From NCBI RefSeq assembly GCF_013155295.1, contig NZ_JABJXT010000028.1, positions 1 through 37,082 on the forward strand: a DNA stretch of 37,082 nucleotides, written 5' to 3'. Below, in pieces: positions 6,033 through 34,740 of the stretch. Source of the DNA: Pseudogemmobacter hezensis (lineage in GTDB: Bacteria > Pseudomonadota > Alphaproteobacteria > Rhodobacterales > Rhodobacteraceae). A program made the position numbers and the translations under genes. Numbering within the stretch: the stretch's first letter is position 1; every line of letters starts with the position of its first letter. A model generated the notes under the pieces. It was not told where the DNA came from, did not search any database, and saw only the letters and a list, made by a program, of their open reading frames with translations.

Positions 6033-6035
6033 CGT

Positions 6036-14443: not shown

Positions 14444-14446
14444 TGC

Positions 14447-15076: not shown

Positions 15077-15232
15077 CCCATACCTTGCTGCCCGAATTCT
15101 TAGCGCTTTACGGCGCCGATTACAAAAAATTTAAGATTCACCCCCAATTTTGTAGACATCTCTAAATTTGAAGATAACAGTAAATTTGTTCTTTCCCGCC
15201 AGGGCTGAGCAAATGAGACATGAGGACAACCG
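15077..15232. promoter_or_regulatory. Divergent AT-rich control region between TetR gene and importer operon
   Basis: This stretch is far more AT-rich than its surroundings. It contains an inverted repeat TACAAAA/TTTTGTA (15121-15127 and 15148-15154) and a direct repeat TAAATTTG twice, 18 bases apart (about 15162 and 15180). On the minus strand, TTGTAA and TAAGAA with 17 bases between could serve the TetR gene; on the plus strand, TTGTAG and GATAAC with 17 bases between could serve the importer. These box assignments are weak guesses; the repeats are plausible TetR binding sites. Confidence 0.4.
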
Positions 15233-16234
15233 ATGCACGCAAACCCCAACGACCAGACGCTGAGCGTGCAGGGCATCAATAAGCGCTATGGCACATTCCA
15301 GGCGCTTAACGACGTCGGGATTGATGTAAAACGCGGCGAGTTTCTGACGCTGCTCGGGCCTTCGGGCTCGGGGAAGACCACGCTTCTGATGTCGGTTGCC
15401 GGTTTCATCCAGCCCGATTCGGGGAGGATCATGCTTGGCGCGCAGGACATCACCTTCGCCGCGCCCGAAAAGCGAAATTTCGGCATGGTGTTCCAGGGCT
15501 ATGCGCTGTTTCCGCATCTGAAGGTGCGTGAGAATGTGGCCTTCCCGCTGAAGATGCGCGGCATCCGCGGTGCGGCTGCGACGAAAAGCGTGGCTGAGGC
15601 GCTGGAGCTGGTGGGCCTTGCCGACAAGGGCGAGCGCTACCCGCGCGAGCTGTCGGGCGGCCAGCAGCAGCGCGTGGCACTGGCGCGGGCCATTGTTTTC
15701 CAGCCGCATCTTCTGCTGCTGGACGAGCCTCTCAGTGCACTTGATACCCAGCTGCGCGGCCAGCTGCAGACCGAGCTGAAACGGCTGCATCGCGCCGTGG
15801 GCCTGACCTTCATCTATGTCACCCATGACCAGGGCGAGGCCCTGTCGATGTCAGATCGCATCGCGGTGATGAAAGACGGCAGGATCGTGCAGCTCGGCGC
15901 CCCCTCCGCGCTTTACAACCGCCCCGCCAACCGTTTCGTGGCCGAATTTCTGGGGGTCGAGAATTTTCTGCCCGAACGCCTGACCGGCAGGCAGGGTCTG
16001 CTGGCGGTGCGTGCCTCTGCGCTGTCGCTGGCGGGCAAGGCCGGGCGTATCAGCGCCAGGGTCAGCGATCTGGACTATCACGGCGCCGAGATCCGCTACA
16101 CCGCCCAGACCGAATGCGGCCTGTCGCTGCGGTTCAACCTCAGCCTGCGCGACGCAGCCCACGTGCCGCAGGAAAATGAAAACGTCACGCTGGACTGGCA
16201 GGAGAAAGACGCCCTGCCCTTCCCCGCAGCCTGA
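15233..16234 (+). CDS. potA: Polyamine-type ABC importer ATPase (PotA-like)
   Basis: 333 residues with AGGA seven bases upstream of the ATG. Walker A GPSGSGKTT (42-50), Q-loop GMVFQGYALFPH, signature LSGGQQQRVALARA, Walker B LLLLDEPLSALD and H-switch YVTHDQGEA are all canonical. After residue 240 follows a C-terminal TOBE-type regulatory domain, giving the usual PotA length and not the short form. It is the first gene of a run that ends with catabolic enzymes, so the ligand is more likely a cationic or amidated nutrient than a housekeeping polyamine. Confidence 0.92.
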   Translation: MHANPNDQTLSVQGINKRYGTFQALNDVGIDVKRGEFLTLLGPSGSGKTTLLMSVAGFIQPDSGRIMLGAQDITFAAPEKRNFGMVFQGYALFPHLKVRENVAFPLKMRGIRGAAATKSVAEALELVGLADKGERYPRELSGGQQQRVALARAIVFQPHLLLLDEPLSALDTQLRGQLQTELKRLHRAVGLTFIYVTHDQGEALSMSDRIAVMKDGRIVQLGAPSALYNRPANRFVAEFLGVENFLPERLTGRQGLLAVRASALSLAGKAGRISARVSDLDYHGAEIRYTAQTECGLSLRFNLSLRDAAHVPQENENVTLDWQEKDALPFPAA

Positions 16235-16289
16235 CAGTCCGGGCGTCAACCGATCAACAATAAATCCAAACCACAACAGGGAATTGAAA

Positions 16290-17390
16290 ATGGAGCAACA
16301 AAGCTTTGCCCAAGATTATGCTGAAATCATGCGCGAGCAAAGCGCACGCGGCATAAGCCGTCGCGCCATTCTGCGCTCGGCGCTGGCGATGGGGGTCGCG
16401 CCCCTTGCACTGGGTGCGGGCCGTGTTTTCGCTGAAACCCGCCCGGAGGTGGTGCTGGTCAACTGGGGCGGCCTTTCGGTCGAAGTCTTCCAGAAGGCCT
16501 TTGCCGATCCCTTCAACGCGGCGGGCGGCAATCTGGTGATCGACGGCTCGGGCCCGCTGAACGGCAAGATCCTGACCATGGTGCAGTCGAATGCCGTGAC
16601 CTGGGACATTTGCGATGCCGGCGTCACCACCATCGCCGATCTGGGGCCGAAAGGCGCGCTTGAACAGATTGACTATGAGATCGTCGACAAGTCGAAAGTC
16701 GTCGACGGCTTCGCCTATGACCTTGGCGTGGTGAACTATTTCTTCTCATCGGTCATGGCCTGGGATACCTCGAAGATCGAGGGCCAGCCCAGCCCGGCCG
16801 ATTTCTTCGATATCGAAAAGATCCCCGGCCGTCGCATGATCCGCAAGGACAGCCAGGCGATGCTGGAGCTGGCGCTGCTTGCCGATGGCGTGGCACCTGC
16901 CGATCTCTATCCGCTGGATGTCGAGCGGGCGCTGGCGAAATTCGAAAGCATCCGCGAGCATCTGCTGTTCTGGTCGTCGGGGGCGGAAAGCCAAAGCCTG
17001 CTGCGCGACGGCGAATGCGTCATGGGCTTCCTGTGGTCGACCCGCGCCAATATGCTGAAAGAAGAGACCGAAGGCCGCATCGACTATACCTTCGAGAAAG
17101 GCCTGCTGCAGCCTGGCATCTGGGTGGTGCCCAAGGGCAACCCGGCTGGCAAAGAGGCGTTCCACGCCATCGCCTCGATGCAAAGCGCGGCTGAGCAGAT
17201 CATCTTGCTTGAGCAGATGGGCAATGGCCCGGCGAACCCGGCAGGCTCGGATCTGGTGCCCGAGGCACTGAAAGCGGTCAACCCCTCTGACCCGGCCAAT
17301 ACCGCCGTCCAGGCCAAGGTCAGCGCCGAGTGGTATTTCGAGAACCACACCGCAGTCTATCAGGAATTCCTGGACCGGATCGCCTCCTGA
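16290..17390 (+). CDS. Polyamine-type ABC importer substrate-binding protein (PotD-like), Tat signal
   Basis: 366 residues from the ATG at 16290 (AGGGA seven bases upstream); the longer frame before it overlaps the ATPase gene. A twin-arginine signal, ISRRAILRSALAMG, then a hydrophobic stretch and GRVFAET point to Tat export. The mature part is an extracellular family-1 binding protein: VVLVNWGGLSVEVFQKAFADPF, SNAVTWDICDAG, GVVNYFFSSVMAWDTSK, MGFLWSTRAN. These match the PotD/PotF layout, but the ligand-contact residues cannot be assigned by eye. Substrate unknown; a compound with a cationic amine or guanidino group would suit the enzymes downstream. Confidence 0.9.
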   Translation: MEQQSFAQDYAEIMREQSARGISRRAILRSALAMGVAPLALGAGRVFAETRPEVVLVNWGGLSVEVFQKAFADPFNAAGGNLVIDGSGPLNGKILTMVQSNAVTWDICDAGVTTIADLGPKGALEQIDYEIVDKSKVVDGFAYDLGVVNYFFSSVMAWDTSKIEGQPSPADFFDIEKIPGRRMIRKDSQAMLELALLADGVAPADLYPLDVERALAKFESIREHLLFWSSGAESQSLLRDGECVMGFLWSTRANMLKEETEGRIDYTFEKGLLQPGIWVVPKGNPAGKEAFHAIASMQSAAEQIILLEQMGNGPANPAGSDLVPEALKAVNPSDPANTAVQAKVSAEWYFENHTAVYQEFLDRIAS

Positions 17391-17413
17391 GCCGGACCAC
17401 CATCTCTGGCTGA

Positions 17414-17476
17414 GGGCGGCCGCGCCGCCCCTGGCCTTACGCGTCACACCTGCCCCGCAAAGGGCCGGTGTGGCGC
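17414..17476 (+). repeat. Two intergenic stem-loops after the binding-protein gene
   Basis: First stem GGGCGGC/GCCGCCC with a CGC loop (17414-17430); second stem GCG-T-CACACC against GGTGTG-G-CGC with a 16-base loop (17441-17476). They fill the 128-base gap between binding protein and permease and probably stabilise the upstream mRNA or partly terminate, giving more binding protein than permease. The in-frame GTG at 17468 lies inside the second stem, which argues against its use as the permease start. Confidence 0.55.
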
Positions 17477-17518
17477 ACGCGCCCCTCTTTCCAACCGAGC
17501 AAGCTGGACCATAATTCC

Positions 17519-18361
17519 GTGCGCATTCTTGCCAATCCGATGCTTCGCTACTGGCTGCTGATCGCGCCCGCGCTTCTGGCGATGGCGGTCTTCTATTTCT
17601 ACCCGATCAGCCATGTCCTGTGGATGAGCGTCACGCTGCCCGAACCCGGGGTCTCGAATTTCGAAAGCCTCGCGGCCTCGCGTTCGGTGCAAAGGATGCT
17701 CTGGACGACCCTGCGCATCGCGGTTCTCTCGACGATGATCTCGCTGATCCTGGCCTATTTCGTGGCCTATGTGATCTCGACCGTCGATGAGCGCCGCCGT
17801 CGTCTGTTGTTCATGGGGGTGGTGATCTCGCTCTGGATTTCGGTGCTGGTGCGGGCCTTTGCCTGGTTCGCCCTGCTGCGAAATGACGGGCTGATCAACC
17901 AGGCGCTGATCGGCATGGGGCTGATCGACAGGCCGCTGCCGCTGATGTGGAACGAATTCGCGGTGCTGGTGGGCATGGTGCATTACATGCTGCCGCTGGC
18001 GATCCTGCCGCTTTACTCGGGGATGCAGTCGATCGATCCGCGCCTTGTCGCCGCCGCACGCGGGCTGGGGGCCAGCCGGATGACCGCCTTCTGGAAGATC
18101 TGGTTCCCGCTGACCCTGCCCGGCGTTTTCGCGGCCTCGATCCTTGTTTTCATCTATTCGCTGGGCTTCTACGTCACGCCCGCGCTGTTGGGTGGCGGCA
18201 AGAAGATGATGGTCGCCGAATATATCAAGGTCCAGATCCTTGAGGTGGTGAACTGGGGCCTCGGCTCGGCGCTTGCCACGCTCTTGCTGATCTTCGTCCT
18301 GGTGACGCTGGCGATTGTCAGCCGCGTCGTCGATCTGCGCAAAGTATTCGGAGCGGGCTGA
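17519..18361 (+). CDS. potB: Polyamine-type ABC importer permease (PotB-like)
   Basis: About 280 residues if translation starts at the GTG at 17519; a GTG at 17468 is in frame but sits in a hairpin, and an ATG at 17540 is a third option. There are six membrane segments, and the cytoplasmic EAA loop reads VAAARGLGASRMTAFWKIWFPLTLPG, as expected for the binding-protein-dependent permease family. It ends one base before the second permease start and forms the membrane channel with it. Confidence 0.88.
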   Translation: MRILANPMLRYWLLIAPALLAMAVFYFYPISHVLWMSVTLPEPGVSNFESLAASRSVQRMLWTTLRIAVLSTMISLILAYFVAYVISTVDERRRRLLFMGVVISLWISVLVRAFAWFALLRNDGLINQALIGMGLIDRPLPLMWNEFAVLVGMVHYMLPLAILPLYSGMQSIDPRLVAAARGLGASRMTAFWKIWFPLTLPGVFAASILVFIYSLGFYVTPALLGGGKKMMVAEYIKVQILEVVNWGLGSALATLLLIFVLVTLAIVSRVVDLRKVFGAG

Positions 18362-18362
18362 G

Positions 18363-19154
18363 ATGTCGGATACATTGCGCCAGGAACCCACAATCGTCAC
18401 CAAATCCCTTGCCTGGGCGGTGATCTGCTATCTCGTGCTGCCGATCACGGTGGTGGTCTCGGTCTCGCTGACCGACCGGCCCTATCTCTCGCTGCCCTCG
18501 GAAGGCGTGTCGCTGCAATATTACGAAAAGCTCTTCACCTCGTCGGAATGGCTGTCCTCGATCTGGCAGAGCTTTGTCATCGCCACCGTCTCGACCGCGA
18601 TCTGCGGCGTGCTGGGCACGCTTGCCGCTATTGGCTGCTGGCGGATCGGCTCGGGGCTGGCGAATGTGGTGCGGATGGCGATGCTGATCCCGCTGATGCT
18701 GCCCTCGATGATCTATGCGCTTGGCGCCTATCAGGTCTGGGCGGGGTTTGGCTGGGTCAATACCTATACCGGCATCATCATAGCCCATGCCATGACCGGC
18801 ATGCCCTATGTGGTGATCACCGTCTCGACCTCGCTTGCCGGGCTTGACCCAAAGCTGGAGCAGGCCGCGCGCAATCTGGGTGCCACCATGGGCCAGAGCC
18901 TGCGTCATGTGATCATCCCCAATATCAGGCCCGGCGTGATTTCGGGGCTGGTCTTCGCCTTCATCCATTCCTGGGATGAGCTGGTGATCGCCCTCTTCAT
19001 CGCGGGGCGCAATGTCTTCACTCTGCCGCGCCGGATGTGGGACGGGATCAACGAACATCTTGATCCGACCATGGCCGCCGTCGCCACCGTGCTGATCTTT
19101 CTGACCGTGATCCTGCTGGCCGCCGAATTCTTCCTGCGCGGCAAGAAACGCTGA
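18363..19154 (+). CDS. potC: Polyamine-type ABC importer permease (PotC-like)
   Basis: 263 residues from the ATG at 18363, one base after the PotB-like stop. Six membrane segments and an EAA loop, QAARNLGATMGQSLRHVIIPNIRPG, identify it as the second permease. The motif SWDELVIALFIAG near the C-terminus is typical of PotC. A longer frame upstream only overlaps the first permease. The next gene starts 32 bases later, so the enzymes downstream are probably co-transcribed. Confidence 0.9.
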   Translation: MSDTLRQEPTIVTKSLAWAVICYLVLPITVVVSVSLTDRPYLSLPSEGVSLQYYEKLFTSSEWLSSIWQSFVIATVSTAICGVLGTLAAIGCWRIGSGLANVVRMAMLIPLMLPSMIYALGAYQVWAGFGWVNTYTGIIIAHAMTGMPYVVITVSTSLAGLDPKLEQAARNLGATMGQSLRHVIIPNIRPGVISGLVFAFIHSWDELVIALFIAGRNVFTLPRRMWDGINEHLDPTMAAVATVLIFLTVILLAAEFFLRGKKR

Positions 19155-19186
19155 CCCCATCCCGCCCTTCCGGAGCACCAACTGCC

Positions 19187-20773
19187 ATGACCGTCTTCAA
19201 AGACGCCCCCCTCAAGCGCGACGCCATGTCCTGGATTGACGACAATCTGGGGCAGCTTTCGCAAGACCATATGACGATATGGAACTTCCACGAGCCGTCC
19301 TGGCGCGAATACCGCTCGGCTGCCTGGTATGTCGAACGGCTGCGCGCCGAGGGTTTCACCGTCGAAGAGCGTTCGGGCGGAATGGACACCGCCTTTTGCG
19401 CCACCTGGTCGAATGGCGACGGCCCGACCATCGGCGGCTATGCCGAATATGACGCGGTGCCAGGCCAGTCGCAGGCGCCAGTGCCCTACCGCGCGCCGCG
19501 CGAGGGCGTCTCGAAATATGCCGCGGGCCATACCGACCCGCATTCGGCGCTTGGGATAGGCTCGCTGACCGGGTTCCTTGCCGCCAAGGCGGTGATGGAG
19601 AAACACGGGATCAGGGGGCGGCTGAAATACCTGGGCGAGCCGGCCGAGAAGATGTGCGGATCAAAACCCGTCCATGCCGCGAAAGGCTATTACGACGATC
19701 TGGATGCGGCGATCAGCTTTCACCCGCACTCTTTCCCGGCGCTGACCAATGGCTGTTTCTGGGACACCCATTCCGCCCCCTACTGGAGCCGGATCTATAC
19801 CTTTGAATGCGACGAGCCCGAGACCTGGCAGCAGTCGAAGGCCATCTCGGGCGTCGCCCATACCCATTCCAGCGCCCGCGCGCCCGGCGCGATTGACGCG
19901 GTCTGCATGATGTATACCTCGGGCAAATATATGAAGGAAAGCATGCTGCCCCATCACGGCAGCTGGACGCTGAACGAATATATCCTGAAGGCGGGCCATG
20001 CGGCGGCGGACAATATCGCACCGGGGCTGGGGCAAATCCAGTATTCCTTCCGTGGCCCGACGCTTGACATGTGCGAGCGCGTCTTCGAGGTGCTTGACCG
20101 CAACGCCGATCATATCGCCGCGATGACCCATTGCCGCGTGACAAAGGCCTGGATCACCCGCTGCCGCCCCGGCCTTCCCAACCATGCCATGGCCGAAGTG
20201 ACCTTCCGCAATTTCGAGGAAATCGGCGCTCCGGTCTGGGGCGAGGCAGGTAAGGACTTCGCCCGCCAGATTATGACCGGCCTTGGCAGGGACGCGCTGG
20301 ACCAGCCTTTCGTCGACGGTCATGACCGCCTGACGCCGCCCTGGGAGGCCGAAAAGTCCTTCCGCGCAACGCTGCCCTCCTGGCAGAAGAACCTCGCGGC
20401 GGATGACTATGTCGAATACACATGGCACGCGCCGACAGTGCGGCTTTATGTGGCCCGTCCGACGCTGGCCTCGCCCGATGGCTATCGCTACGGCGAATGG
20501 ACCCGCAATGCGATGGGCGGCGTTCCGGCCTGTATCGACCCGATGTGGTCGACCGCGGGCCGCGTGGTCGCTGCAACGATCCTCGATCTTCTGACCGATG
20601 GTAAAAGCCTTGCGGCTGCACAGGCGGAATACCTTGAGCGCTCGGGCGGCGGGCGCGGTGCGCCCGGCTGGACCGCGCCGCTGCTGCCCGGAACCTTCGA
20701 GGCCCCCACCGACTATGGCTGGCCCGAATATATCACCACGCCGCGCGGCGATGGCTGGTCGCACCCCGGCTGA
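19187..20773 (+). CDS. M20-family amidohydrolase (AbgB/M20D-like) with altered metal ligand
   Basis: 528 residues, cytoplasmic. The family pattern of AbgB and related amidohydrolases is present: GGYAEYDAVPG (residues 83-93), then GHTDPHSALG (114-123), then LGEPAEK (149-155), DAAISFHPH and, near the end, a Gly-rich AMGGVPACIDPMWS. These enzymes cleave an acyl or aryl amide of an amino acid. In M20D enzymes the second motif normally reads GHxCGH, with Cys and His as metal ligands; here Asp-Pro-His replaces Cys-Gly-His. The protein is also longer than the usual 400-480. GGAG precedes the ATG. It probably removes an acyl group from the imported compound, but this is inference. Confidence 0.82.
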   Translation: MTVFKDAPLKRDAMSWIDDNLGQLSQDHMTIWNFHEPSWREYRSAAWYVERLRAEGFTVEERSGGMDTAFCATWSNGDGPTIGGYAEYDAVPGQSQAPVPYRAPREGVSKYAAGHTDPHSALGIGSLTGFLAAKAVMEKHGIRGRLKYLGEPAEKMCGSKPVHAAKGYYDDLDAAISFHPHSFPALTNGCFWDTHSAPYWSRIYTFECDEPETWQQSKAISGVAHTHSSARAPGAIDAVCMMYTSGKYMKESMLPHHGSWTLNEYILKAGHAAADNIAPGLGQIQYSFRGPTLDMCERVFEVLDRNADHIAAMTHCRVTKAWITRCRPGLPNHAMAEVTFRNFEEIGAPVWGEAGKDFARQIMTGLGRDALDQPFVDGHDRLTPPWEAEKSFRATLPSWQKNLAADDYVEYTWHAPTVRLYVARPTLASPDGYRYGEWTRNAMGGVPACIDPMWSTAGRVVAATILDLLTDGKSLAAAQAEYLERSGGGRGAPGWTAPLLPGTFEAPTDYGWPEYITTPRGDGWSHPG

Positions 20774-20829
20774 TCCAGCCGGTTTCACACCCCTTTTTAT
20801 ACCGATCCCGAAAGTCCCGGAGCAGATCC

Positions 20830-21837
20830 ATGTCCATCATCACTGAAGGCGAATATCGCTATAACCAGCTGATCAAGCAGTTCCCCTCACAGGCGGAACC
20901 GGCTTTTGAAAGCGCAGAACAACAAGAGCTGGTCTGGGGCCAGGTCTGGGGCTGCGACAATGATGTGGGCCAGATCCGCAAAGTCCTGATGCACCGCCCC
21001 GGCGATGAGCTGAACGTCGTTGATCCGACCAAGCGGATCCCCGGCATCAACGCCTTTGGCGAGGTAGACAAGGGCTGGTACTGGCGCGGCGATGTGATCC
21101 CGACGCTGGCCGGGATGCAGGCCCAGCATGACGCCTATGCCGCCGCCCTGCGCGAGGAAGGTGCCGAGGTCGTCTATGTCGACAAGGCCGCGCCGGGCAA
21201 GATGAAGCAGGTCTATACCCGTGACAGCGTGATCGCGGTCAAGGGTGGCGCCATTATCACCCGCCTCGGCCCGCCGATCCGGCGCGGCGAAGAGCTTCCC
21301 GTCACCCGCACCCTTGCCGCGATGGGCATGCCGATCCTGCGCACCATCTCTGGCATCGGCCTGATGGAGGGTGGCAGCTTTGCCTGGATCCGCCCCAATC
21401 TGGCGGTGGTCGGCCTCTCAAGCCGCGTCGACCGCGAGGGCGCGCGCCAGCTGGCCGAGGTGCTGGCGACCCAGGGCGTCGAACTTCTGATGGTCGAGCT
21501 GACGGGCTACCGCCTTCACATCGACGGCACCTTCGTAATGGTCGATGAAAACACCGCTTTCGTGAACCCGACCATCGTGCCCTTCTGGTTCCTTGAGAAA
21601 CTGAAATCACTGGGCATCCACGTGATCGAGGTGCATCACGAAGACAACAACTGGGTGGTCAACTGCCTTGCCGTGCGGCCAGGCCGGGTGCTGATGTCGA
21701 CCGGCCTTTCCGACCATACCGCCGAGCAATTCGACAAGGCCGGGATCTCGGTCCGATTTGTCGATTACGACAAGGTGGCGCTTGGCGGTGGCGGGCTGCA
21801 TTGCTCGACTGCGCCACTGGTGCGCGACAGCCTCTGA
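20830..21837 (+). CDS. Guanidino-group-modifying (pentein) enzyme: deiminase/dimethylargininase/amidinotransferase family
   Basis: 335 residues. The catalytic set of the pentein superfamily is complete: TRDS (130-133), EGG (180-182), His in RLHIDGTF (H230) and a C-terminal nucleophile Cys in GGGGLHCSTAPL (C325). This is the Cys-His-Glu/Asp machinery that attacks a guanidinium carbon, as in arginine deiminase, DDAH, agmatine deiminase and amidinotransferases. It is shorter than arginine deiminase (about 410) and longer than DDAH (about 255-285). Deimination would give a ureido compound plus ammonia (or citrulline plus amine), and the carbamoylase two genes later would be the natural next step. 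No signal peptide. Exact substrate unknown. Confidence 0.87.
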   Translation: MSIITEGEYRYNQLIKQFPSQAEPAFESAEQQELVWGQVWGCDNDVGQIRKVLMHRPGDELNVVDPTKRIPGINAFGEVDKGWYWRGDVIPTLAGMQAQHDAYAAALREEGAEVVYVDKAAPGKMKQVYTRDSVIAVKGGAIITRLGPPIRRGEELPVTRTLAAMGMPILRTISGIGLMEGGSFAWIRPNLAVVGLSSRVDREGARQLAEVLATQGVELLMVELTGYRLHIDGTFVMVDENTAFVNPTIVPFWFLEKLKSLGIHVIEVHHEDNNWVVNCLAVRPGRVLMSTGLSDHTAEQFDKAGISVRFVDYDKVALGGGGLHCSTAPLVRDSL

Positions 21838-21926
21838 TCATTGTGCTCCCGGCGGCAGCAATCCCCCGCCGGGGCCTCTCACATATCTCCCTACTCTCTC
21901 TCCCTGTCACTTGCCGGAGCCCAACC

Positions 21927-23555
21927 ATGTCTTCCCTGTCGCCGCTGACCGTTGCGGATTATATTTGCCAAAGCCTCAGCGCCAACGGGATCGACACCGT
22001 TTTCGGCATCCCCGGCGTGCATACGGTCGAGCTTTACCGCGCGCTCGCCGACAGCGCGCTGCGCCATGTCACGCCGCGCAACGAACAGGGCGCAGGCTTC
22101 ATGGCCGATGGCTATGCGCGCGCCTCAGGCAAGGTTGCGGCCTGTTTCACCATCACCGGGCCGGGGCTGACGAATATCGCCACCGCCATGGGCCAGGCCC
22201 TGGCCGATTGCGTGCCGATGCTGGTGATTTCCTCGGTCAACCCAACCGGGCGGATGGGATCGGGCCAGGGCTGGCTGCATGAGCTGCCCGACCAGCGTGC
22301 CTTTGCCGCCCAGGTCTCGGTCTTCAGCCATACGCTTCTTGACCCGGCAGAGCTGCCCCAGGTGCTGGCCCGCGCCTTTGCCACCTTCCATTCGACCCGG
22401 CCCGGCCCGGTTCATATCGAGATCCCGGTCAATCATTTTACAACCGATATGCCGGAAGGCTGCCCGGCTCCGGCGCGGATCCCGCTGCCTGGGCGGCCCA
22501 GCCCCGATTCAGCGCGTCTCGCAGACCTGACCGATCTGTGCCGCACAGCAAAACAGCCGGTGATCCTGGCCGGAGGCGGGGCTGCCGATGCCGCCGCCCT
22601 GCTGCAAAGCCTGGCGGAAAGGCTGGATGCGCCCATGGTGATGACCTGCAACGGGCGCGGCATCCTGCCTGACGGGCATGACCTGGCGGTGCCCTGCTCT
22701 CCGGCGCTGCCGCCGGTTCGCAGGCTGATCGAAGAGGCCGATCTGATCCTGGCCCTCGGCACCGAAATCGGCCCGGCGGAATATGACTTCTATAACAGTG
22801 GTGCAATGCAGCCAAAAGGACGCCTGGTGCGCGTCGACATCGACGCCGGCCGTATCATGCGCGGCGCGAAAGCCGACCTCGGGTTGGTCAGCGATACCGG
22901 GCTCGCGGTTCGGGCGCTGCTGGACATGCTGCCAGCAGACAATGCGGAAACGGGCGGCAAGTCGCGGGCAGCAGCCGCGCGCGAGGCTGTCAGCGCCGTC
23001 ACCTCGCCAATGTACCTCGCAGGCCAGAAGCTGCTGGCAACCATCCGCGACACGCTGCCTGAAGTGATCGTCGCAGGCGATTCCGCGCAGCCCGTCTATG
23101 CCGCGATGATGCATTTCGGCACCAACCGGCCCCGCACCTGGTTCTGCTCGGCCACGGGTTTCGGCACGCTTGGCTATGCGGTTTCGGCAGCAACCGGGGC
23201 CTGGCTTGCCACCGGACGCCCGGTCGTCGCACTGGTCGGCGACGGCGGCCTGCAGTTCAACCTGGGAGAGATCGCAACCGCACGAGAGATCGGTTGCCCG
23301 CTGATCATCGCCCTGTGGAACAACAAAGGCTATTTCGAAATCAAAAACTACATGGCGCGGCGCGACATTCCAACGCTCGGGGTGGATCTCTTCACCCCTG
23401 ATTTCGGCCTTCTGGCCACGGGGTTCGACTGCGCAACCGAAGCATTGGTGGCGCCGGAACAGCTGTCCGAGGCACTCATCGCTGCAGCGGGGCGGACGCG
23501 GCCAACGCTTCTCGATATCGACGAGGCGGGGTTCCTCGCCGCTGGAGAGAAGTAA
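21927..23555 (+). CDS. Thiamine-diphosphate-dependent 2-oxoacid decarboxylase / acetolactate synthase-like enzyme
   Basis: 542 residues from the ATG at 21927 (GGAG seven bases upstream); the in-frame extension to 21801 runs through the pentein gene. Catalytic Glu in TPRNEQGAGFMADGYAR (E53), ThDP/Mg motif GDGGLQFNLGEIATAREIGC then LWNNKGYFEIKNY. The family includes AruI, which decarboxylates 2-oxo-5-guanidinovalerate in the arginine transaminase route; with a guanidino-active enzyme upstream and a 2-hydroxyacid dehydrogenase downstream, an AruI-like role is attractive but unproven. It differs clearly from the ThDP enzyme at 10504-12177, which is not a recent duplicate. Confidence 0.88.
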   Translation: MSSLSPLTVADYICQSLSANGIDTVFGIPGVHTVELYRALADSALRHVTPRNEQGAGFMADGYARASGKVAACFTITGPGLTNIATAMGQALADCVPMLVISSVNPTGRMGSGQGWLHELPDQRAFAAQVSVFSHTLLDPAELPQVLARAFATFHSTRPGPVHIEIPVNHFTTDMPEGCPAPARIPLPGRPSPDSARLADLTDLCRTAKQPVILAGGGAADAAALLQSLAERLDAPMVMTCNGRGILPDGHDLAVPCSPALPPVRRLIEEADLILALGTEIGPAEYDFYNSGAMQPKGRLVRVDIDAGRIMRGAKADLGLVSDTGLAVRALLDMLPADNAETGGKSRAAAAREAVSAVTSPMYLAGQKLLATIRDTLPEVIVAGDSAQPVYAAMMHFGTNRPRTWFCSATGFGTLGYAVSAATGAWLATGRPVVALVGDGGLQFNLGEIATAREIGCPLIIALWNNKGYFEIKNYMARRDIPTLGVDLFTPDFGLLATGFDCATEALVAPEQLSEALIAAAGRTRPTLLDIDEAGFLAAGEK

Positions 23556-23556
23556 G

Positions 23557-24792
23557 ATGAACAATCTGCGCGTTAACGGCGGGCGTCTTTGGTCCAATCT
23601 GATGGACACCGCCCGCTTCGGTGGCACCGAGGCAGGCGGCGTGCGCCGACTGACCCTGTCGGAAGAAGACCGCAAGGTGCGCGCCTGGCTTGAAGCCCGT
23701 GCGCTTGCCGCCGGCTGCACCATCGCGCGCGACCGGCTGGGCAATATGTTCCTGCGTCGCGAGGGCCGCCGCACCGATCTGACGCCGATTGCCATGGGCA
23801 GCCATCTCGACACCCAGCCGACCGGCGGGAAGTTCGACGGTATCCTTGGCGTTCTGGCGGGGCTGGAGGTGATCGAAACCCTGAATGACGCCGGGATCAA
23901 GACCGAACATCCGCTTATGCTGGTAAACTGGACCAATGAAGAGGGCGCGCGCTTTGCGCCTGCGATGCTCTGTTCGGGCGCATGGGCCGGGGTCTTTTCC
24001 GAGGACTATGTGCGCGCGCGCCAGGATAGCGCCGGCACGAGCTTTGGCAGCGCGCTTGCGGGAATTGATGCGGCGGGCGATCAGCCCGTTGGCGCGCAGG
24101 ATTTCGCCGCCATGTTCGAGTTGCACATCGAACAGGGGCCGGTGCTGGAACGCGAAGAGCTGACCATCGGTGTCGTGACCGGCGTGCAGGGCATGCGCTG
24201 GTATGACCTCGAAATCACCGGGCGCGCAGCCCATGCCGGTTCAACCCCGATGGACGCGCGCGCCGATGCGCTTTTGGCAGCGGCCGGGCTGATCACGGGC
24301 GCCTCGCGCCTTGCGAAGGAACTGGGCGGCTATGCCACGGTGGGCGAGCTGACCATCGCCGAGCCCTCGCGCAATGTCGTGCCGGGTGCGGTGCGGCTGA
24401 CCTTCGATCTGCGCCATGGCGATGATGCGGGCCTTGAAGCCATGGAACAGGGGCTTCAGACACTCATCTCGGGCCTTGCGCCCGATCTGAGCGCGCAATT
24501 GCAACAGATCTGGTCCAGCCCGCCCGTCCATTTCGACGCCGATTGTCTGGCCTCGATCCGCGAGGCCTCGGCCAGCCACGGTCACAAAGACATGATTTCG
24601 GGCGCCGGCCACGATGCCGCCTATGTGGCGCGCAAAGTTCCGACCGCGATGATCTTTGTGCCCTGTGCGGGCGGGCTGAGCCACAATCCTGCCGAAAGCG
24701 CCACCGTCGAAGATTGCAGCACAGGGGCGCAGGTGCTGCTGGACAGCGTGCTGATCCATGATCGCAGACTCACGGCCAGAGCGGCAGAATGA
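23557..24792 (+). CDS. Zn-dependent N-carbamoyl-L-amino-acid hydrolase / beta-ureidopropionase family (M20)
   Basis: 411 residues, the family's normal length. The motifs are complete: GSHLDTQPTGGKFDGILGVL (81-100; metal His83 and Asp94), NWTNEEGARFAPAMLCSGAW (Glu near 128-129), FELHIEQGPVLE, RAAHAGSTPMD, and near the end GAGHDAAYVA and SHNPAE. This set is diagnostic for the carbamoylase/allantoate amidohydrolase/beta-ureidopropionase group, which remove the carbamoyl group (or a similar C-N bond) as CO2 and ammonia. The start is one base after the ThDP enzyme stop. Being next to a guanidino-active enzyme, it likely acts on a ureido product. Confidence 0.9.
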   Translation: MNNLRVNGGRLWSNLMDTARFGGTEAGGVRRLTLSEEDRKVRAWLEARALAAGCTIARDRLGNMFLRREGRRTDLTPIAMGSHLDTQPTGGKFDGILGVLAGLEVIETLNDAGIKTEHPLMLVNWTNEEGARFAPAMLCSGAWAGVFSEDYVRARQDSAGTSFGSALAGIDAAGDQPVGAQDFAAMFELHIEQGPVLEREELTIGVVTGVQGMRWYDLEITGRAAHAGSTPMDARADALLAAAGLITGASRLAKELGGYATVGELTIAEPSRNVVPGAVRLTFDLRHGDDAGLEAMEQGLQTLISGLAPDLSAQLQQIWSSPPVHFDADCLASIREASASHGHKDMISGAGHDAAYVARKVPTAMIFVPCAGGLSHNPAESATVEDCSTGAQVLLDSVLIHDRRLTARAAE

Positions 24793-26135
24793 CAAGCGCC
24801 CTGACAGAGCTTTCCGAGGTTCTGGGTCCGGCAGGCTTTACAGCTGCCAGCGATCTTGCAGGCGGATCCTCCCTTGATGACGCAAGCGGCGCCGGCACCG
24901 GAACGCTGCCCCTCGCGCTTTTGCGCCCGGCCTCTGTGGCGGAAATCCAGGCCGTAATGCGGATCTGCTTTCACCACGCGATCCCTGTTGTCCCCCAGGG
25001 CGGGCTGACCGGATTAAGCGGCGGCGCCCTGCCCCGCGCAGATGCAGTGGCCCTTTCGCTGGCGCGTTTCAGTGGCGTCGAAGAGGTGGATCCGCTGCAG
25101 GGCACGATGACTATGCGCGCGGGCACCGTGCTGCAAACCGCCCAGGATGCGGCAGGTGAAGCGGGCTTTTTGTTCCCCATTGATCTTGGCGCACGCGGAT
25201 CATGCCAGATTGGCGGCATCATCTCGACCAATGCCGGCGGCCCGCGGGTGATCCGCTACGGCATGACACGCGACAATCTGCTGGGCCTTGAAATGGTTCT
25301 GTCCGATGGGACGCTGCTCTCGCATCTGTCACAGGTCACCAAGGACAATACCGGCTATGATCTGCGGCATCTTTTTTGCGGCGCAGAGGGAACACTCGGC
25401 GTCATCACCAGGGCGGTGTTCCGTCTTGCCCCCGCGCCGCCGCCTGTGCAGACCGCACTTTGCGCCATCGAACGGTTCGACGCCATTCCGGCCCTGCTGC
25501 AAAAGGCAAAACGCGATCTGACCCTCTCGGCATTTGAGACGATGTGGCAGGATCACTTCCTGGTCGGTGGCGGTCGCGGGGTTTTCAGCCCGCTGCCGGA
25601 CTATGCCCTGCTGATTGAGGCCGAAAACGGCGATCTGACGGCCTGGCTGGAATGGGCCTTCGCCGAGGGCCTGATTTCCGATGCCGTGGTTGCCACTTCG
25701 GGGGCGGCCGCGCAAAAGTTCTGGGACATCCGCGAGAACGTGCGCCCCGAGCGCAGTCTCAAGGGGTTGCACAATCTCGATATCAGCCTGCCGCTGGCGA
25801 AGACCGAGGCCTTTGTAAGCGCCTGCCGCGAAGGGCTTTTGCAGCTTGATCCACTGGCGCAAAGCTGGTTCTTCGGGCACCTCGGCGATGGAAATCTGCA
25901 TGTGATCGTCGATTTGCCGGGGCTGGGACCGGAAGGGAAAAAGCAGGTCCAGGATCTTGTCTATCCCATGGTGGAGAAATCCGGCGGCTCGATTTCAGCC
26001 GAGCACGGTATCGGATCGCTCAAGCGCGACTGGCTGCACCATTCCCGAAGCTCCGCTGAAGTCGCCGCGATGCGGGCCATCCGCACCGCGCTGGACCCGC
26101 TGGGCCTTATGAACCCGGGTAAATCAGCAGCGTGA
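24789..26135 (+). CDS. FAD-linked 2-hydroxyacid dehydrogenase (GlcD / D-2-hydroxyglutarate dehydrogenase-like)
   Basis: 448 residues; the ATG overlaps the carbamoylase stop as ATGA. N-terminal FAD-binding (PCMH/VAO-type) domain with PQGGLTGLSGGA, GGIISTNAGGPRVIRYG and GAEGTLGVIT; C-terminal FAD-oxidase domain with the metal-binding GHLGDGNLHVIVD and SAEHGIGSLK, as in D-lactate and D-2-hydroxyglutarate dehydrogenases. It oxidises a D-2-hydroxyacid to a 2-oxoacid, passing electrons to a quinone or flavoprotein. With the ThDP enzyme it could form a hydroxyacid-to-oxoacid-to-aldehyde pair. Last gene of the operon. Confidence 0.88.
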   Translation: MTSALTELSEVLGPAGFTAASDLAGGSSLDDASGAGTGTLPLALLRPASVAEIQAVMRICFHHAIPVVPQGGLTGLSGGALPRADAVALSLARFSGVEEVDPLQGTMTMRAGTVLQTAQDAAGEAGFLFPIDLGARGSCQIGGIISTNAGGPRVIRYGMTRDNLLGLEMVLSDGTLLSHLSQVTKDNTGYDLRHLFCGAEGTLGVITRAVFRLAPAPPPVQTALCAIERFDAIPALLQKAKRDLTLSAFETMWQDHFLVGGGRGVFSPLPDYALLIEAENGDLTAWLEWAFAEGLISDAVVATSGAAAQKFWDIRENVRPERSLKGLHNLDISLPLAKTEAFVSACREGLLQLDPLAQSWFFGHLGDGNLHVIVDLPGLGPEGKKQVQDLVYPMVEKSGGSISAEHGIGSLKRDWLHHSRSSAEVAAMRAIRTALDPLGLMNPGKSAA

Positions 26136-27212: not shown

Positions 27213-27926
27213 CTATCCCACGACAAAGCCTACCCGGTCCGCGCAAAAGGCAGAGCAACCGAAACTGACCAGGTGCCCCTCCGGATCGACGTCCTGCTTG
27301 ACGGCGACGATCAGCGGATGCGTTCGCGGCATGCCGAGAAGGCGAGCCTCTGCCACCGACGGCAGCCGGGACTGAAGCCTGGTCGTGACCCGGCGATAGT
27401 CGCGCACCCCGAAGGCCTGCAATGCCTCGGTTGGCGAGGTGGTCTGATGAAAAACCCGGTCAATGCCGGCAAATCGTGGTGTGGGGAAATGATCCGAAAC
27501 CAGACCGACCGGCCGGCCCTCGATCTCGATCAGGAGCCGGACCTGAACGCAATCGCCGCCCGGGGCCAGACCAAGGGTCCGCGCTGTCTCGCCATCCGCA
27601 GGCACGGTCTCGGCCGAGATAAGCCGCCGCGCGCCCGGCAATCCCAGCATGGTCAGATTGGCGGACAGCCTGGTGCGCGAGTCCAGCGAAAAGGCGATCA
27701 CCCGGTTGCGCACAAAGGTTCCGCGCCCCTGCTCGATCAGGACCACACCGGCAGCCTCAAGGCTGGCCAGCGCCTGGCGGACGGTAAAGCGGCTGACGCC
27801 ATGGTTGCGCGCCAGCTGGCTCTCGGGCGGCAATTGGTCTCCTGGCTGGTATTCTCCCGCCTCGATGGATGCTGCGATCAACTTTGAAACACCCCGCCAA
27901 AGCGGGTTGTCATTACACCTGACCAT
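27213..27926 (-). CDS. GntR-family regulator, HutC/UTRA subfamily (PhnF-like)
   Basis: 237 residues. The N-terminal winged helix-turn-helix has the classical LPPESQLARNHGVSRFTVRQALASLEAAGVVLIEQGRGTF pattern (about 30-70). The C-terminal part (about 90-235) is a UTRA ligand-binding domain. In the operon context UTRA regulators sense imported small molecules (histidine intermediates, phosphonates, amino sugars). It is divergent from the dipeptide-type importer operon with 174 bases between, so it is the likely repressor of that operon. PhnF-like is a resemblance, not an assignment. Confidence 0.87.
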   Translation of the reverse strand: MVRCNDNPLWRGVSKLIAASIEAGEYQPGDQLPPESQLARNHGVSRFTVRQALASLEAAGVVLIEQGRGTFVRNRVIAFSLDSRTRLSANLTMLGLPGARRLISAETVPADGETARTLGLAPGGDCVQVRLLIEIEGRPVGLVSDHFPTPRFAGIDRVFHQTTSPTEALQAFGVRDYRRVTTRLQSRLPSVAEARLLGMPRTHPLIVAVKQDVDPEGHLVSFGCSAFCADRVGFVVG

Positions 27927-28100
27927 TGTCGGCCCCGATTACGTTCCCTGAGCGAGCCTGACACAGTTTTGCGTCGCTGCCGTGACAGCAAGCCCCGGCA
28001 GCGGACCTTTGCGAAAATGGGTCTGTCATTGAGACGTTAGACAGTTCGGCCACTTAGGCGCCGAACCGGGCCGATGGCCCATGCACGTTCCGAGGATCCC
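27927..28100. promoter_or_regulatory. Divergent control region of the UTRA regulator and dipeptide-type importer
   Basis: A 174-base intergenic region that must hold both promoters. An inverted repeat CTGTC/GACAG lies at 28023-28027 and 28040-28044 with a 12-base spacer; a second GACAG occurs at about 27982. These could be UTRA operator half-sites, but the arms are short. The importer start has GAGG five bases before the ATG at 28101; an ATG at 28074 is in frame but has poorer spacing and would add residues ahead of the signal peptide. Confidence 0.3.
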
Positions 28101-29684
28101 ATGCTTCCGCTCAACCGTCGCAACTTTCTGTCAATTTCACTGGCCGCCGGCGCTTTGCCCGTCTTTGCGCCCGCCGCCTTTGCCCCCGCCGCCTTTGCCC
28201 AGTCAGCCGAGCGCCCTGAACTGCGCATCGCCGTTCAGGGGCTGCCGGTCAGCCTCGAGCCGGTCAACGCCATCGGCAATGTCGGCAACCGCATCACCAA
28301 CGCCATTTTTGACACGCTGATCCGCCGCGACTTCCTGGCGAACGACCAGGGCTCGGCCACCGATCTGGTGCCGGCCATCGCCGCATCCTGGGCACGCGAA
28401 GACGACCGCACGCTGCTGGTGACCATCGCCGAGGGGGTCAGGTTCCACAACGGCCGTGACGTCACCGCCCGGGATGTGGCCTTCAGCTTTTCGGCCGAGC
28501 GTATTTGGGGCGACAGCCCGATGGTGCCCCGCGGTCCGCTGTTCTCGGCGCAGTTCGAATCGGTCGAGGCCATTGACGATCGCACCGTGCGGATGCGCAC
28601 CACCGCCGCCGACTGGTCCCTGGAAAAGCGGCTGGCCTCCTGGATTGCCTGGGTGGTTCCCGAGAAGGAATACCGCGAGATGGGCCCCGAGGCCTTCGGT
28701 CTCGCCCCGATCGGCACCGGACCCTACAAATTCGTGGAATTCGTTCCCGGTGACCGCGTGGTTCTGGAAGCCTTCGACGACTATTACCTTGGCCGGCCGA
28801 CGGCCTCTCGCGTGACCTTCTCGGTCGTGCCGGAAATTGCCACCCGCGTCGCAGGCCTGATCAGCGGCGAATATGAGATGGCCTGTGCCCTGGGCCCCGA
28901 CAATATCCCGATGCTATCGGCCGAGCCTGAGGTCGAAGCGCGTGCCACCCAGATCGAGAACGTGCATCTTTACATTTTCCAATGTGATGCGCCGGTCGTG
29001 TCGGACAAGCGGGTGCGTCGCGCCCTGAACCTTGCCCTTGACCGCGACCTTCTCAACAAAGCGCTTTGGGGTGGTTTGGCAGGTATTCCGAACGGCTTCC
29101 AGATCCCGGCCTATGGCGCGGTCTATGATGCCAGCCGCCCAGGCTTTGCCCATGATCCCGAACTGGCGCGCAGCCTGCTGGCCGAGGCCGGTTACGCCGG
29201 CGAGCAGATCACCTTCCGGACGCTGAACGATTACTATGTCAATTCGGTCGCCGCGATCCAGATGATGATGGAGATGTGGAAGTCGGTCGGGTTGAACGTC
29301 GACATGCAGATCCTCGAGAACTGGAACCAGGTGCTGGAACCGGGTCTGCAGATGCGCAACTGGTCGAACGGCTTCCAGATGCCGGATGCCTCAACGCCGC
29401 TGACCTCGGACTGGGGTCCGACCGGCTCGGCCCAGACCCTGCACAAATGGCAGGCTCCGGTTGAATATAACGAGCTTGCCGCCAGGGTTGCCAGCCTGCC
29501 CGACGGCGAAGAACGGGCCGCAGCCTATGCGCGTCTGATGGATATCTGGGAAGATGAGGCCCCCGGCGCCGTGCTTTACCGCCCGGTCGAGGTCTATGGC
29601 GTTCGCCGCTCGATCAACTGGCGCCCGGTGACCTTCGAGTTCATGGACCTGCGCCCCTACAACCTGACCTTCGATCAAGCCTGA
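28101..29684 (+). CDS. ABC importer substrate-binding protein, family 5 (dipeptide/oligopeptide/opine type), Tat signal
   Basis: 527 residues. A twin-arginine start, LNRRNFLSISLAAG, is followed by a hydrophobic stretch that contains the repeat FAPAAFAPAAFA, caused by a 15-base tandem duplication near 28168-28197. The mature part is a family-5 binding protein (layout of DppA/OppA/NikA): SLEPVNAIGNVGNRITNAIFDTL, VRFHNGRDVTARDVAFSF, FAHDPELARSLLAEAGY, WEDEAPGAVLYRPVEVYG. These bind peptides, opines, nickel or phosphorylated compounds, so the ligand is open. It heads an operon containing a phosphodiesterase-type enzyme. Confidence 0.9.
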   Translation: MLPLNRRNFLSISLAAGALPVFAPAAFAPAAFAQSAERPELRIAVQGLPVSLEPVNAIGNVGNRITNAIFDTLIRRDFLANDQGSATDLVPAIAASWAREDDRTLLVTIAEGVRFHNGRDVTARDVAFSFSAERIWGDSPMVPRGPLFSAQFESVEAIDDRTVRMRTTAADWSLEKRLASWIAWVVPEKEYREMGPEAFGLAPIGTGPYKFVEFVPGDRVVLEAFDDYYLGRPTASRVTFSVVPEIATRVAGLISGEYEMACALGPDNIPMLSAEPEVEARATQIENVHLYIFQCDAPVVSDKRVRRALNLALDRDLLNKALWGGLAGIPNGFQIPAYGAVYDASRPGFAHDPELARSLLAEAGYAGEQITFRTLNDYYVNSVAAIQMMMEMWKSVGLNVDMQILENWNQVLEPGLQMRNWSNGFQMPDASTPLTSDWGPTGSAQTLHKWQAPVEYNELAARVASLPDGEERAAAYARLMDIWEDEAPGAVLYRPVEVYGVRRSINWRPVTFEFMDLRPYNLTFDQA

Positions 29685-29686
29685 GA

Positions 29687-30655
29687 ATGACCAGAACCGA
29701 ACCGGCCGCAGCGATGCTGCGGCCAACCGGAATATCCGAAGGCATCAGGGTCAGGGGTGTGACAGTCACCACCCGGAACCATGCCACTGTTCTGGTCGAG
29801 AACCTTGAGATCGACCTGCGCTCTGGCGAGATCCACGCGCTTGTCGGCGAAAGCGGATCGGGCAAAAGCCTGTCGGCACTGGCCATTCTTGGATTGCTGC
29901 CGCCCGCGCTGGAGATGACCGGCCAGATCACACCGGCCTTGCGGCCGGGCCGTGACGTGGCTCTGGTGATGCAGGACCCGGTCGCGGCGCTGGATCCGCG
30001 CTGGCGTGTCGGTCGTTTCCTGACCGGGCAGTTTGCACGGCTGGGCGACTTGCCCCTATCCGCAGCCAGAACCGCTGCGCGGGCCATGCTGGGGCGGTTG
30101 GGCCTGACCGATATCGACAGGGTGATGGCGGCCTATCCGCATCAGCTGTCGGGCGGCATGGCGCAGCGGGTGATGATCGGTGCGGCTCTGGCCGGCTCGC
30201 CTGCCTTTCTTCTGGCGGATGAACCCACGACCGCCCTTGATGTGACGACACAGGCGCAGATCCTGTCACTGCTGCAGGGGCTTTGTCGTGATCAGGGGCT
30301 TGGCATGCTGCTGATCACTCATGATCTTGGCGTGGTTGCCGAAACCGCCGCGCGAATGACGGTCCTTTATGGCGGTCAGGTGATGGAGCGCGGGCCCGCC
30401 AATGCCGTGCTGCCCCGGCCGGTTCATCCTTATACGCGGGCGCTGTTGCGGGCGATGCCGGATCTGGCCAGCGCGGCGCCGCCTGCGCCCATCGCGGGGC
30501 AACCTGGCCGCCCGTCGGGCCGGATCGGCTGTGCCTTTGCGCCGCGCTGCGCGCAGGCAGGTCCGCTTTGCACGGCCGCGCGGCCGCAGCTTCGCCCGCG
30601 CGGCGACGGCGCCGGGGACTTTGCCTGCCACCACCCCGAAGGGGATGCCGCATGA
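29687..30655 (+). CDS. dppD: Dipeptide-type ABC importer ATPase (DppD-like)
   Basis: 322 residues; starts two bases after the binding-protein stop (an internal ATG at 29714 is an alternative). Walker A GESGSGKS (about 61-68), Q-loop [12 protein letters not shown], signature [12 protein letters not shown], Walker [14 protein letters not shown]-switch LITHDLG. The C-terminal oligopeptide/dipeptide extension with cysteines ([14 protein letters not shown]) is present; in this family these often hold a 4Fe-4S cluster. It forms the ATPase pair with the next gene, whose start overlaps its stop. Confidence 0.9.
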
Positions 30656-34370: not shown

Positions 34371-34408
34371 TATTTGGTGCCGAAACGAAGCCCGCCGCGA
34401 AGCCTGCC

Positions 34409-34441
34409 GCATCACCCGCCGCGGAACCCGGCGGGTGATGC
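34409..34441 (+). terminator. 12-bp perfect stem after the dipeptide-type importer operon
   Basis: GCATCACCCGCC pairs perfectly with GGCGGGTGATGC around a 9-base loop, 38 bases after the last stop codon. Location and strength fit a terminator or 3' mRNA-protecting structure. No T-run follows, so true intrinsic termination is uncertain. Confidence 0.5.
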
Positions 34442-34614
34442 CGGGCGCTTGCGCGGGAAGCGAGGATTTTTGCCAGTTCCGGGGCGCATTTGCTCTGGCT
34501 GGCAGCGTAGCAGATGAACCCCTGGAGATATGACGCCCAAATCAGGCCGTGTTGACAAAAGGGATTCGCAGGGCGGTTTGATCGTAATTCAGTCTGGTAT
34601 CTGCGACAGAGACC

Positions 34615-34738: not shown

Positions 34739-34740
34739 CG

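Follow-up and report, generated by a model that had tools for sequence, protein, structure and literature searches.

A candidate catabolic operon for amide-linked guanidino acids in Pseudogemmobacter hezensis

In a 37,082-base stretch of DNA from Pseudogemmobacter hezensis – the entire contig C21 of its assembly, hereafter the window – nine genes run on the same strand from 15233 to 26135, with intergenic gaps of -4 to 89 bp. They encode an ATP-binding cassette (ABC) importer and five enzymes: an M20 amidohydrolase, a pentein, a thiamine diphosphate (ThDP)-dependent decarboxylase, a member of the carbamoylase family and a flavin adenine dinucleotide (FAD)-dependent dehydrogenase. We put forward, as a tentative first choice among several readings, that the operon serves the catabolism of an amide-linked, arginine-derived guanidino acid that lacks a free alpha-amino group; the simplest such compound would be the amide of a 2-hydroxy acid of the argininic-acid type. 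With slightly more reserve we suggest that it may represent an undescribed way of breaking down alpha-deaminated arginine analogues held in amide linkage, with guanidinobutyrase replaced jointly by the carbamoylase and by a new pentein deiminase specific for guanidino hydroxy- or oxo-acids; two parallel versions of the route – two parts of the M20 tree, with mostly two types of pentein – may exist in the Rhodobacteraceae, the rhizobia and further Alphaproteobacteria, in part carried by plasmids. The gene set, the enzyme families, their recurrence and the residue pattern of the pentein are observations; from these we infer the substrate, the order of reactions and the function of every enzyme. 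A sequence-only reading had described the same nine closely spaced or overlapping genes, and all were found.

The proposed scheme begins with uptake: the importer would take in the amide-linked guanidino acid and the M20 enzyme would cleave the amide. The pentein would then convert the guanidino group to a ureido group, freeing ammonia, and the carbamoylase would strip off the carbamoyl group, giving the primary amine 5-amino-2-hydroxypentanoate. Oxidation of the 2-hydroxyl by the FAD enzyme would give a 2-oxo acid, which the ThDP enzyme could decarboxylate to 4-aminobutanal, for entry into 4-aminobutyrate (GABA) metabolism. An amide of a guanidino 2-hydroxy acid is the preferred cargo because it gives work to all five enzymes and respects the pocket of the pentein.

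Much hinges on this pentein (20830-21837, + strand, as are all nine genes), which we predict to be a deiminase of a guanidino carboxylic acid without a free alpha-amine. In a Pfam scan the protein matched PF02274 (79 bits, cut-off 22.8) and PF19420 only, with no match to the agmatine deiminase domain. Its nearest characterised guanidino enzymes by sequence are dimethylarginine dimethylaminohydrolase (DDAH) and arginine deiminase (ADI), and it falls under the cut-offs of both families: 85.5 of 414 bits against NF002381 and 81.9 of 489 against TIGR01078, both ADI models, and 72.5 of 340 against the dimethylargininase model. A structure model (predicted local distance difference test, pLDDT, 92.2; predicted template modelling score 0.88) gave as its first Foldseek match the 2-nitroimidazole nitrohydrolase NnhA (9.3e-20, at 20% identity), then ADI with arginine (2.8e-19) and DDAH (1.5e-17); the amidinotransferases GATM, SxtG and HsvA matched as well, lower than NnhA and ADI.

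What the pocket may hold was read from residues named in the portion of PMC11659421 consulted. There, D262 of NnhA is equated with the ADI residue that grips the guanidino group, a position at which DDAH has Lys; the second Asp with which ADI and DDAH grip the group from its opposite side is W149 in NnhA; the two Arg residues that grip the carboxyl group are S216 and M168; and the amine-contacting residue, worded as Asp for ADI, is G143. By alignment the counterparts in the window pentein are D232 and D132 for the guanidino group, R151 and R199 for the carboxylate, and K126 at the amine-contact position. The assignment of R151 and R199 to the two named Arg residues is our own reading of the alignment, and K126 lies six residues before D132, as G143 lies six before W149 in NnhA. 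All 37 aligned relatives keep K126, D132, R151, E180, H230, D232 and C325, and 35 keep R199; the Cys-His-Glu/Asp set that had been called intact from the letters is indeed so (D132, E180, H230, D232 and C325). In an overlapping set of 40 penteins the amine-contact position is more variable, with Lys in 20, Met in 14, Arg in three, Tyr in two and Asp in one, a DDAH-like row; the ADI of S. meliloti (L238) has Asn there. Given that the guanidino and carboxylate residues are kept while Lys occupies the amine-contact position, the pocket suits a guanidino acid that has no free alpha-amine: from these aligned residues we expect it to receive a guanidino group and a carboxylate, and not a free alpha-amine. 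A pocket plainly built for some other class of substrate would have refuted the sequence-only reading; the one found is of guanidino type. The list of candidate compounds in that reading has narrowed, as such a pocket makes plain arginine or its N-methylated forms less likely.

Relatives of the pentein were drawn from one scan of a genome collection, which gave 69 loci. Those numbered L051-L092 (for example L055, L063, L067 and L072) are about 50-54% identical to the window protein, have none of the operon's partners, and share a gene neighbourhood in several Rhodobacter-like genomes. A third type, with Arg at the amine-contact position, adjoins a carbamoylase gene in L107 and L108, with ABC importer genes near.

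The second line of evidence is recurrence, above all that of the M20 gene (19187-20773) beside a pentein gene. The M20 protein lies under the cut-offs of both relevant profiles (TIGR01891, 104.9 bits of 153.75; PF01546, 19.8 of 24.6) and is therefore a divergent member; of the family calls made by the sequence-only reading this is the one that weakened, whereas the ThDP enzyme, the carbamoylase and the pentein exceeded their cut-offs and the FAD enzyme matched its Pfam families. As the M20 structure model was unusable (pLDDT 32), a profile search was used in its place; it reached HmrA (3ram, 63 bits) and, weakly, an Xaa-Arg dipeptidase (7yh4, 34 bits). The motifs EYD, GHTDPH and GEPAE and residue H179 are kept in at least 95% of 75 aligned rows, and the last three align with HmrA; they are candidates for metal-ligand-like residues and the catalytic Glu.

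Searches with the M20 protein matched 19 of 385 genomes of the class, 13 of 398 of the phylum and 48 of 394 of the family, and yielded 79 different places (one split gene counted twice). Wide flanks are available for 66 of these – 60 fetched loci plus the window, L098, L100, L104, L106 and L109 – and flanks of 1.5 kb only for five; the remaining eight stand outside the neighbourhood counts. A pentein gene lies within 8.5 kb of the M20 gene in 22 of the 66 (16 of the 60 fetched, and all six others). Among the 16, fifteen are no more than 90 bp away and one is at 3.8 kb, and a tblastn re-check of the 60 loci returned the same 16; four of the five narrow-flank loci also carry one (L157, L159, L180 and L184, not L174). 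Fewer than one such neighbour would be expected by chance, a rough calculation from about two or fewer penteins per 4-Mb genome rather than a permutation test; the loci with a pentein also include many that are closely related to each other. The pairing of M20 and pentein is not accidental.

Other members of the operon follow the pentein to differing degrees. A wider table of 75 M20 loci (the 66, three chosen for their pentein and six on plasmids), in which the pentein labels of L030 and L196 were corrected by hand, holds 28 loci with a pentein and 47 without; its counts are uncorrected for relatedness. The binding-protein gene is near 23 of the 28 and three of the 47, the FAD gene near eight and none, and the ThDP gene near seven and three. 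The FAD distribution agrees with the degradation of a 2-hydroxy or 2-oxo acid end, as had been proposed from the gene families. On the M20 tree, pentein neighbours occur in both main parts, mostly with a different pentein type in each, and the pentein label changes 11 times against about 22 when shuffled, a count made with two labels wrong, the penteins of L030 and L196 having been missed.

Many of the M20 relatives in L190-L225 sit in shared Rhodobacteraceae gene neighbourhoods without a pentein, which suggests that part of the M20 family may have another role.

The P. hezensis genome itself carries a second, divergent locus. On contig C23, at 348570-357909 (L098, L099), a pentein and an M20 gene are accompanied by a LysR-type regulator, an importer and a ThDP gene whose product scores 718 bits to NF005712, the model whose cut-off the window's ThDP enzyme also passes. 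Identity to the window proteins is 54% for M20, 52% for ThDP and 31% for the pentein, which has Met in place of Lys126. The C23-type layout is found in L106, L197, L207, L223 and others, with the FAD gene close behind the pentein in these four, and on plasmids of Phyllobacterium sp. T1018 and Roseovarius sp. Pro17, where the copies are annotated amidohydrolase and dimethylarginine dimethylaminohydrolase family protein. The match between pentein type and M20 clade is imperfect: in L141, which holds pentein, M20, ThDP and an isochorismatase-family gene, the M20 belongs to the window's part of the tree while the pentein is nearer the second type and has Tyr at the amine-contact position.

Across the remaining loci – whose gene strings come from a crude gene caller that missed genes, and serve as a guide – the ThDP, FAD and carbamoylase genes behave as optional partners of the M20-pentein pair. 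Closest to the window is L029 (pentein 81% identical), with TetR, deacetylase, importer, M20, pentein, ThDP and FAD genes. L030 has binding protein, permeases, M20 and pentein, and L031-L036 an importer and pentein without M20. L188 combines ThDP, aldolase, M20, pentein and deacetylase-family genes; L137 has M20, a pentein with a ureohydrolase-family gene behind it, and an ArgE/DapE-like gene; in L232 (Kozakia baliensis) a carbamoylase-family gene occurs with pentein, M20, aldolase and TetR genes and two of the deacetylase family. L276 brings ThDP, FAD, two penteins and the same importer type together within 18.5 kb, without this M20. Two plasmid loci, L231 of S. meliloti Rm41 and L233 of Shinella sp. 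PSBB067, combine M20, TetR, deacetylase-family, carbamoylase and NF005712 ThDP genes with an amino-acid-type importer, a pyridoxal phosphate (PLP)-dependent aminotransferase and a class II aldolase; the carbamoylases are of another subfamily (471 bits to NF009529 in L231). An Arthrobacter plasmid (L237) carries a gene of the nicotinamide adenine dinucleotide (NAD)-type D-2-hydroxyacid dehydrogenase family, an M20 gene, a ThDP gene at 454 of 500 bits and a gene annotated succinate-semialdehyde dehydrogenase, with no pentein. The genes that could make a 2-oxo acid swap: FAD-dependent in the window, PLP-dependent in L231 and L233, NAD-type in L237. Carbamoylase and pentein genes are direct neighbours in L093, L107 and L108, where no M20 accompanies them; the distance between the two is about 1 kb in L103 and about 4 kb in L232. 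This arrangement supports the guanidino-to-ureido-to-amine chain first drawn from the sequence.

Of the remaining enzymes, that encoded at 21927-23555 is a predicted 2-oxoacid decarboxylase, placed by score in the 5-guanidino-2-oxopentanoate decarboxylase subfamily (NF005712, PRK07524; 688 bits, cut-off 500). Its ATG start at 21927 is likelier than the mechanically called TTG at 21801, because GGAG precedes the ATG. Glycolate or glyoxylate chemistry, with a GlcD-like and a glyoxylate carboligase-like enzyme, was rejected since the glyoxylate carboligase model gives only some 168 bits. A search with the ThDP protein matched 31 of 248 genomes of the family, giving 30 places outside the P. hezensis genome, of which 20 neighbourhoods were fetched. 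An aminotransferase-like cluster occurs in nine, and in three (L282, L286 and L287) a DDAH-like gene adjoins the ThDP gene, together with aminotransferase-like and importer genes. Proteins taken to represent the clusters – PLP aminotransferase-like (244 bits at best), dimethylargininase-like (205 of 450) and a Lys/Arg/Orn-type binding protein (219 of 256) – all score under curated cut-offs. The three loci look like a methylarginine or arginine 2-oxo-acid route, and the neighbourhoods lend some support to arginine-type 2-oxo acids as substrates of the subfamily.

The carbamoylase-family protein (23557-24792) passes TIGR01879 with 415 bits against a cut-off of 204. Its top matches in the PDB, 5thw and 5i4m, bear names that carry no tested function; N-carbamoyl-L-amino acid and N-carbamoyl-beta-alanine hydrolases (8apz, 8c46) match at 372-374 bits, and the allantoate amidohydrolase 1z2l at 185. 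The FAD-dependent protein (24789-26135; PF01565, PF02913) belongs to a D-2-hydroxyacid dehydrogenase family, its PDB matches including a putative oxidoreductase (3pm9, 298 bits) and D-2-hydroxyglutarate dehydrogenase (6lpn, 254 bits).

The importer comprises an ATPase (15233-16234; PF00005, PF08402; PhnT2- and PotA-like, under both cut-offs), a solute-binding protein (16290-17390; PF13416, 94.5 bits) and two permeases, one PotB-like (17468-18361; PF00528; NF007044, 167 bits, cut-off 348) and one PotC-like (18363-19154; PF00528; NF007047, 140 bits, cut-off 326). The polyamine-type importer seen by the sequence-only reading holds for the ATPase and permeases, which resemble the Pot models from below their cut-offs; the binding protein appears to be of GABA- or opine-receptor type. 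This protein matched no family in the NCBIfam scan, and its closest solved relatives are 4eq7 (162 bits), the agropine permease 6hly (161 bits) and a GABA-sensor construct (152 bits), against 59 bits for the spermidine/putrescine protein 8jv1. Although 4eq7 was deposited as a polyamine-binding protein, we take it to be Atu4243, a GABA receptor, with Arg203 and Asp226 presumably its GABA contacts; in our alignment the window protein has Arg at the former and Gly276 at the latter. By sequence, then, it appears closer to receptors of GABA type and for agropine than to those for polyamines.

Several observations weigh against the proposed catabolism of an amide-linked guanidino acid. K126 could meet an N-acyl or other alpha-substituent instead of marking the lack of an amine. 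The best NCBIfam name of the carbamoylase is the 'allantoate amidohydrolase' subfamily NF006769 (545 bits, cut-off 452); it also exceeds NF006771 (406 of 399), and does not reach allantoate equivalogs such as TIGR03176. The operon contains no aldehyde dehydrogenase, and the deacetylase-family gene upstream, described below, has no role in the scheme. The exact gene set was met only in the window: the genes do co-occur elsewhere, so that this refuting condition of the sequence-only reading did not hold, but the five-enzyme set is not conserved, and L029, the nearest relative and alone in coming close, has no carbamoylase in its 21 kb. The carbamoylase is weakly linked to the pair, being near four of the 28 pentein-bearing and two of the 47 other M20 loci. 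L231 and L233 have no pentein in 19.6 kb despite their M20, ThDP and carbamoylase genes, which is not what a guanidino pathway predicts, and sugar-type genes and regulators stand between the parts of L276. No pentein was found at 44 of the 66 wide-flank M20 places, though some of these end at contig borders near the M20 gene, so that not all absences are certain. Most of the other 61 pentein relatives (about 49-60% identity) show no enzyme partners, many being cut by contig ends, and the pentein family is therefore wider than the operon. Finally, 11 of the 20 ThDP neighbourhoods lack the aminotransferase cluster, and 17 lack a DDAH-like gene adjoining the ThDP gene.

The strongest competitor, unlikely though it seems to us, keeps the substrate family and changes the order of events: oxidation and ThDP decarboxylation would come first (2-ketoarginine to 4-guanidinobutanal to 4-guanidinobutyrate), after which pentein and carbamoylase would yield GABA in place of the guanidinobutyrase that serves the arginine transaminase route. 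In its favour, the ThDP subfamily whose cut-off is passed is named for a guanidino 2-oxo acid, the pentein would act on a compound with no alpha-amino group, as K126 suggests, and the binding protein resembles a GABA-type receptor. The want of an aldehyde dehydrogenase tells against this order too, as does, weakly, the position of the pentein gene ahead of the ThDP gene; moreover IlvB1, an AruI homologue, works better on 5-amino-oxopentanoate according to the portion of PMC7268258 consulted.

A somewhat less likely cargo is an N-alpha-acyl arginine or an opine-like, alpha-N-substituted arginine. Much as in the arginine succinyltransferase route, pentein and carbamoylase would act while the arginine is still acylated, and the M20 enzyme would remove the acyl group, with the FAD and ThDP enzymes handling the acyl half or put to other use. 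This would suit the contacts of the M20 profile with HmrA and, weakly, Xaa-Arg dipeptidase, the ArgE/DapE-like deacylase genes near L132 and L137 (under cut-off), and the resemblance of the binding protein to agropine and mannopine receptors, and an acid attached to the alpha-nitrogen could find its partner in K126. Such a substrate leaves without a clear job the FAD and ThDP enzymes, which in L276 accompany a pentein even where this M20 is absent.

That the operon performs ordinary arginine or methylarginine catabolism, its pentein a drifted ADI or DDAH, is improbable. DDAH and ADI are its nearest characterised relatives among guanidino enzymes, and the H-x-D motif and both carboxylate Arg residues are as in ADI. 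Yet the protein scores far below the ADI and DDAH cut-offs, a DDAH pocket is made unlikely by the Asp two residues after His, where DDAH has Lys, and another residue stands at the amine-contact position; profile scans of the operon detected neither an ornithine carbamoyltransferase nor a carbamate kinase.

Still more improbable is a pentein that acts on a ring or nitro compound, in the manner of NnhA, or that transfers an amidino group like GATM, SxtG and HsvA. NnhA is the best Foldseek match and meets the pentein profile in one long stretch, 25-330, and the amidinotransferases were matched too. The fold match is nonetheless at low identity, the pentein keeps the second Asp and both carboxylate Arg residues that NnhA lacks in the text of PMC11659421 consulted, and carbamoylases near penteins in several loci fit a ureido product. 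We think it just as improbable that there is no single pathway, the neighbours sharing a regulon or transporter and acting on different compounds: partners are patchy, and most M20 places are without a pentein, but the tight gaps, the repeated adjacency across M20 clades and plasmids and the second divergent copy in the genome argue otherwise. Agmatine conjugates, processed by amidase, deiminase and a carbamoylputrescine step, were rejected, as the pentein matches no agmatine deiminase domain and its carboxylate Arg residues are retained.

Each enzyme falls within a known family or on its fringe; the assembled guanidino-acid route was not found described in the open-access literature. Full-text searches gave no description of the gene set, the pathway or the S. 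meliloti relative, a weak absence given that open-access texts only were covered, and the portions consulted of PMC5596199 and PMC9870897 held nothing on the window locus. The nearest known system is the arginine transaminase route (AruH-AruI and guanidinobutyrase; the S. meliloti CATCH-N network, as presented in the part of PMC7268258 consulted), which has the same ThDP subfamily, an arginine-derived 2-oxo acid and a GABA exit. By comparison the window operon lacks the transaminase and ureohydrolase, neither the arginine transaminase nor the guanidinobutyrase family being present among the ten proteins scanned from 13634-26135, and adds an FAD 2-hydroxyacid dehydrogenase and an M20 amidase; pentein and carbamoylase could replace the ureohydrolase.

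Among single enzymes, the pentein shares with ADI its fold and its guanidino and carboxylate contact residues, and differs in its score, its Lys at the amine-contact position and an operon without ArcB/ArcC-type partners. DDAH is its best sequence match to a solved guanidino enzyme, from which it departs by H-x-D instead of H-x-K; NnhA, the best match in fold, is without the second Asp and the carboxylate Arg residues. Agmatine deiminase and N-carbamoylputrescine amidohydrolase take a guanidino group through a ureido group to an amine; the logic is the same, in a pentein set apart by its matches to PF02274 and PF19420 only and by carboxylate-binding Arg residues. From the hydantoinase/N-carbamoyl amino acid amidohydrolase group, to which TIGR01879 ties the carbamoylase, the window differs in coupling this enzyme to a pentein and not to a hydantoinase, and in its allantoate amidohydrolase subfamily name.

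The interest of the system lies in its recurrence, its two versions and a testable specificity residue: with Lys in place of the amine-contact residue, the specificity of the pentein can be tested sharply and cheaply. If the route is real, it would give a function to two families whose names so far reflect resemblance only, one being called 'arginine deiminase family protein' or 'dimethylarginine dimethylaminohydrolase family protein' and the other 'amidohydrolase', and would suggest that bacteria draw nitrogen from a pool of guanidino acids.

Upstream of the nine genes stand a divergent TetR-family regulator (14447-15076, - strand), whose homologues occupy the same position in L029 and lie close to the M20 gene in L231, L232 and L233, and a polysaccharide-deacetylase-family hydrolase (13634-14443, + strand; PF01522, 67 bits; nearest solved relative 3rxz, 76 bits). 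The same deacetylase family occurs near the M20 gene in L029, L188, L231, L232 and L233, and the gene is a probable member of the locus. Its product is weakly PuuE-like, and a hydantoin logic, with this protein as hydantoinase alongside the carbamoylase, seems less likely given a score of just 29 bits of 425 to the PuuE model.

Beyond the operon, the window holds a second catabolic-looking cluster at 1381-12177 on the - strand, with a GntR/FCD regulator (1381-2133), an amidohydrolase_2 protein, a short-chain dehydrogenase/reductase, a branched-chain-type ABC importer with two Peripla_BP_6 binding proteins, and a further ThDP enzyme (10504-12177) that scores 261 bits to NF005712, under the cut-off. 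At 27213-36745 a GntR/UTRA regulator is divergent from a dipeptide-type ABC importer, inside which lies an Exo_endo_phos-family gene (31683-32582), and more ABC importer genes follow at 35084-36745. Near the left end of the window is an IS240-type transposase (567-1289); since the window is a whole contig with such a gene close to its end, a mobile or plasmid origin is possible.

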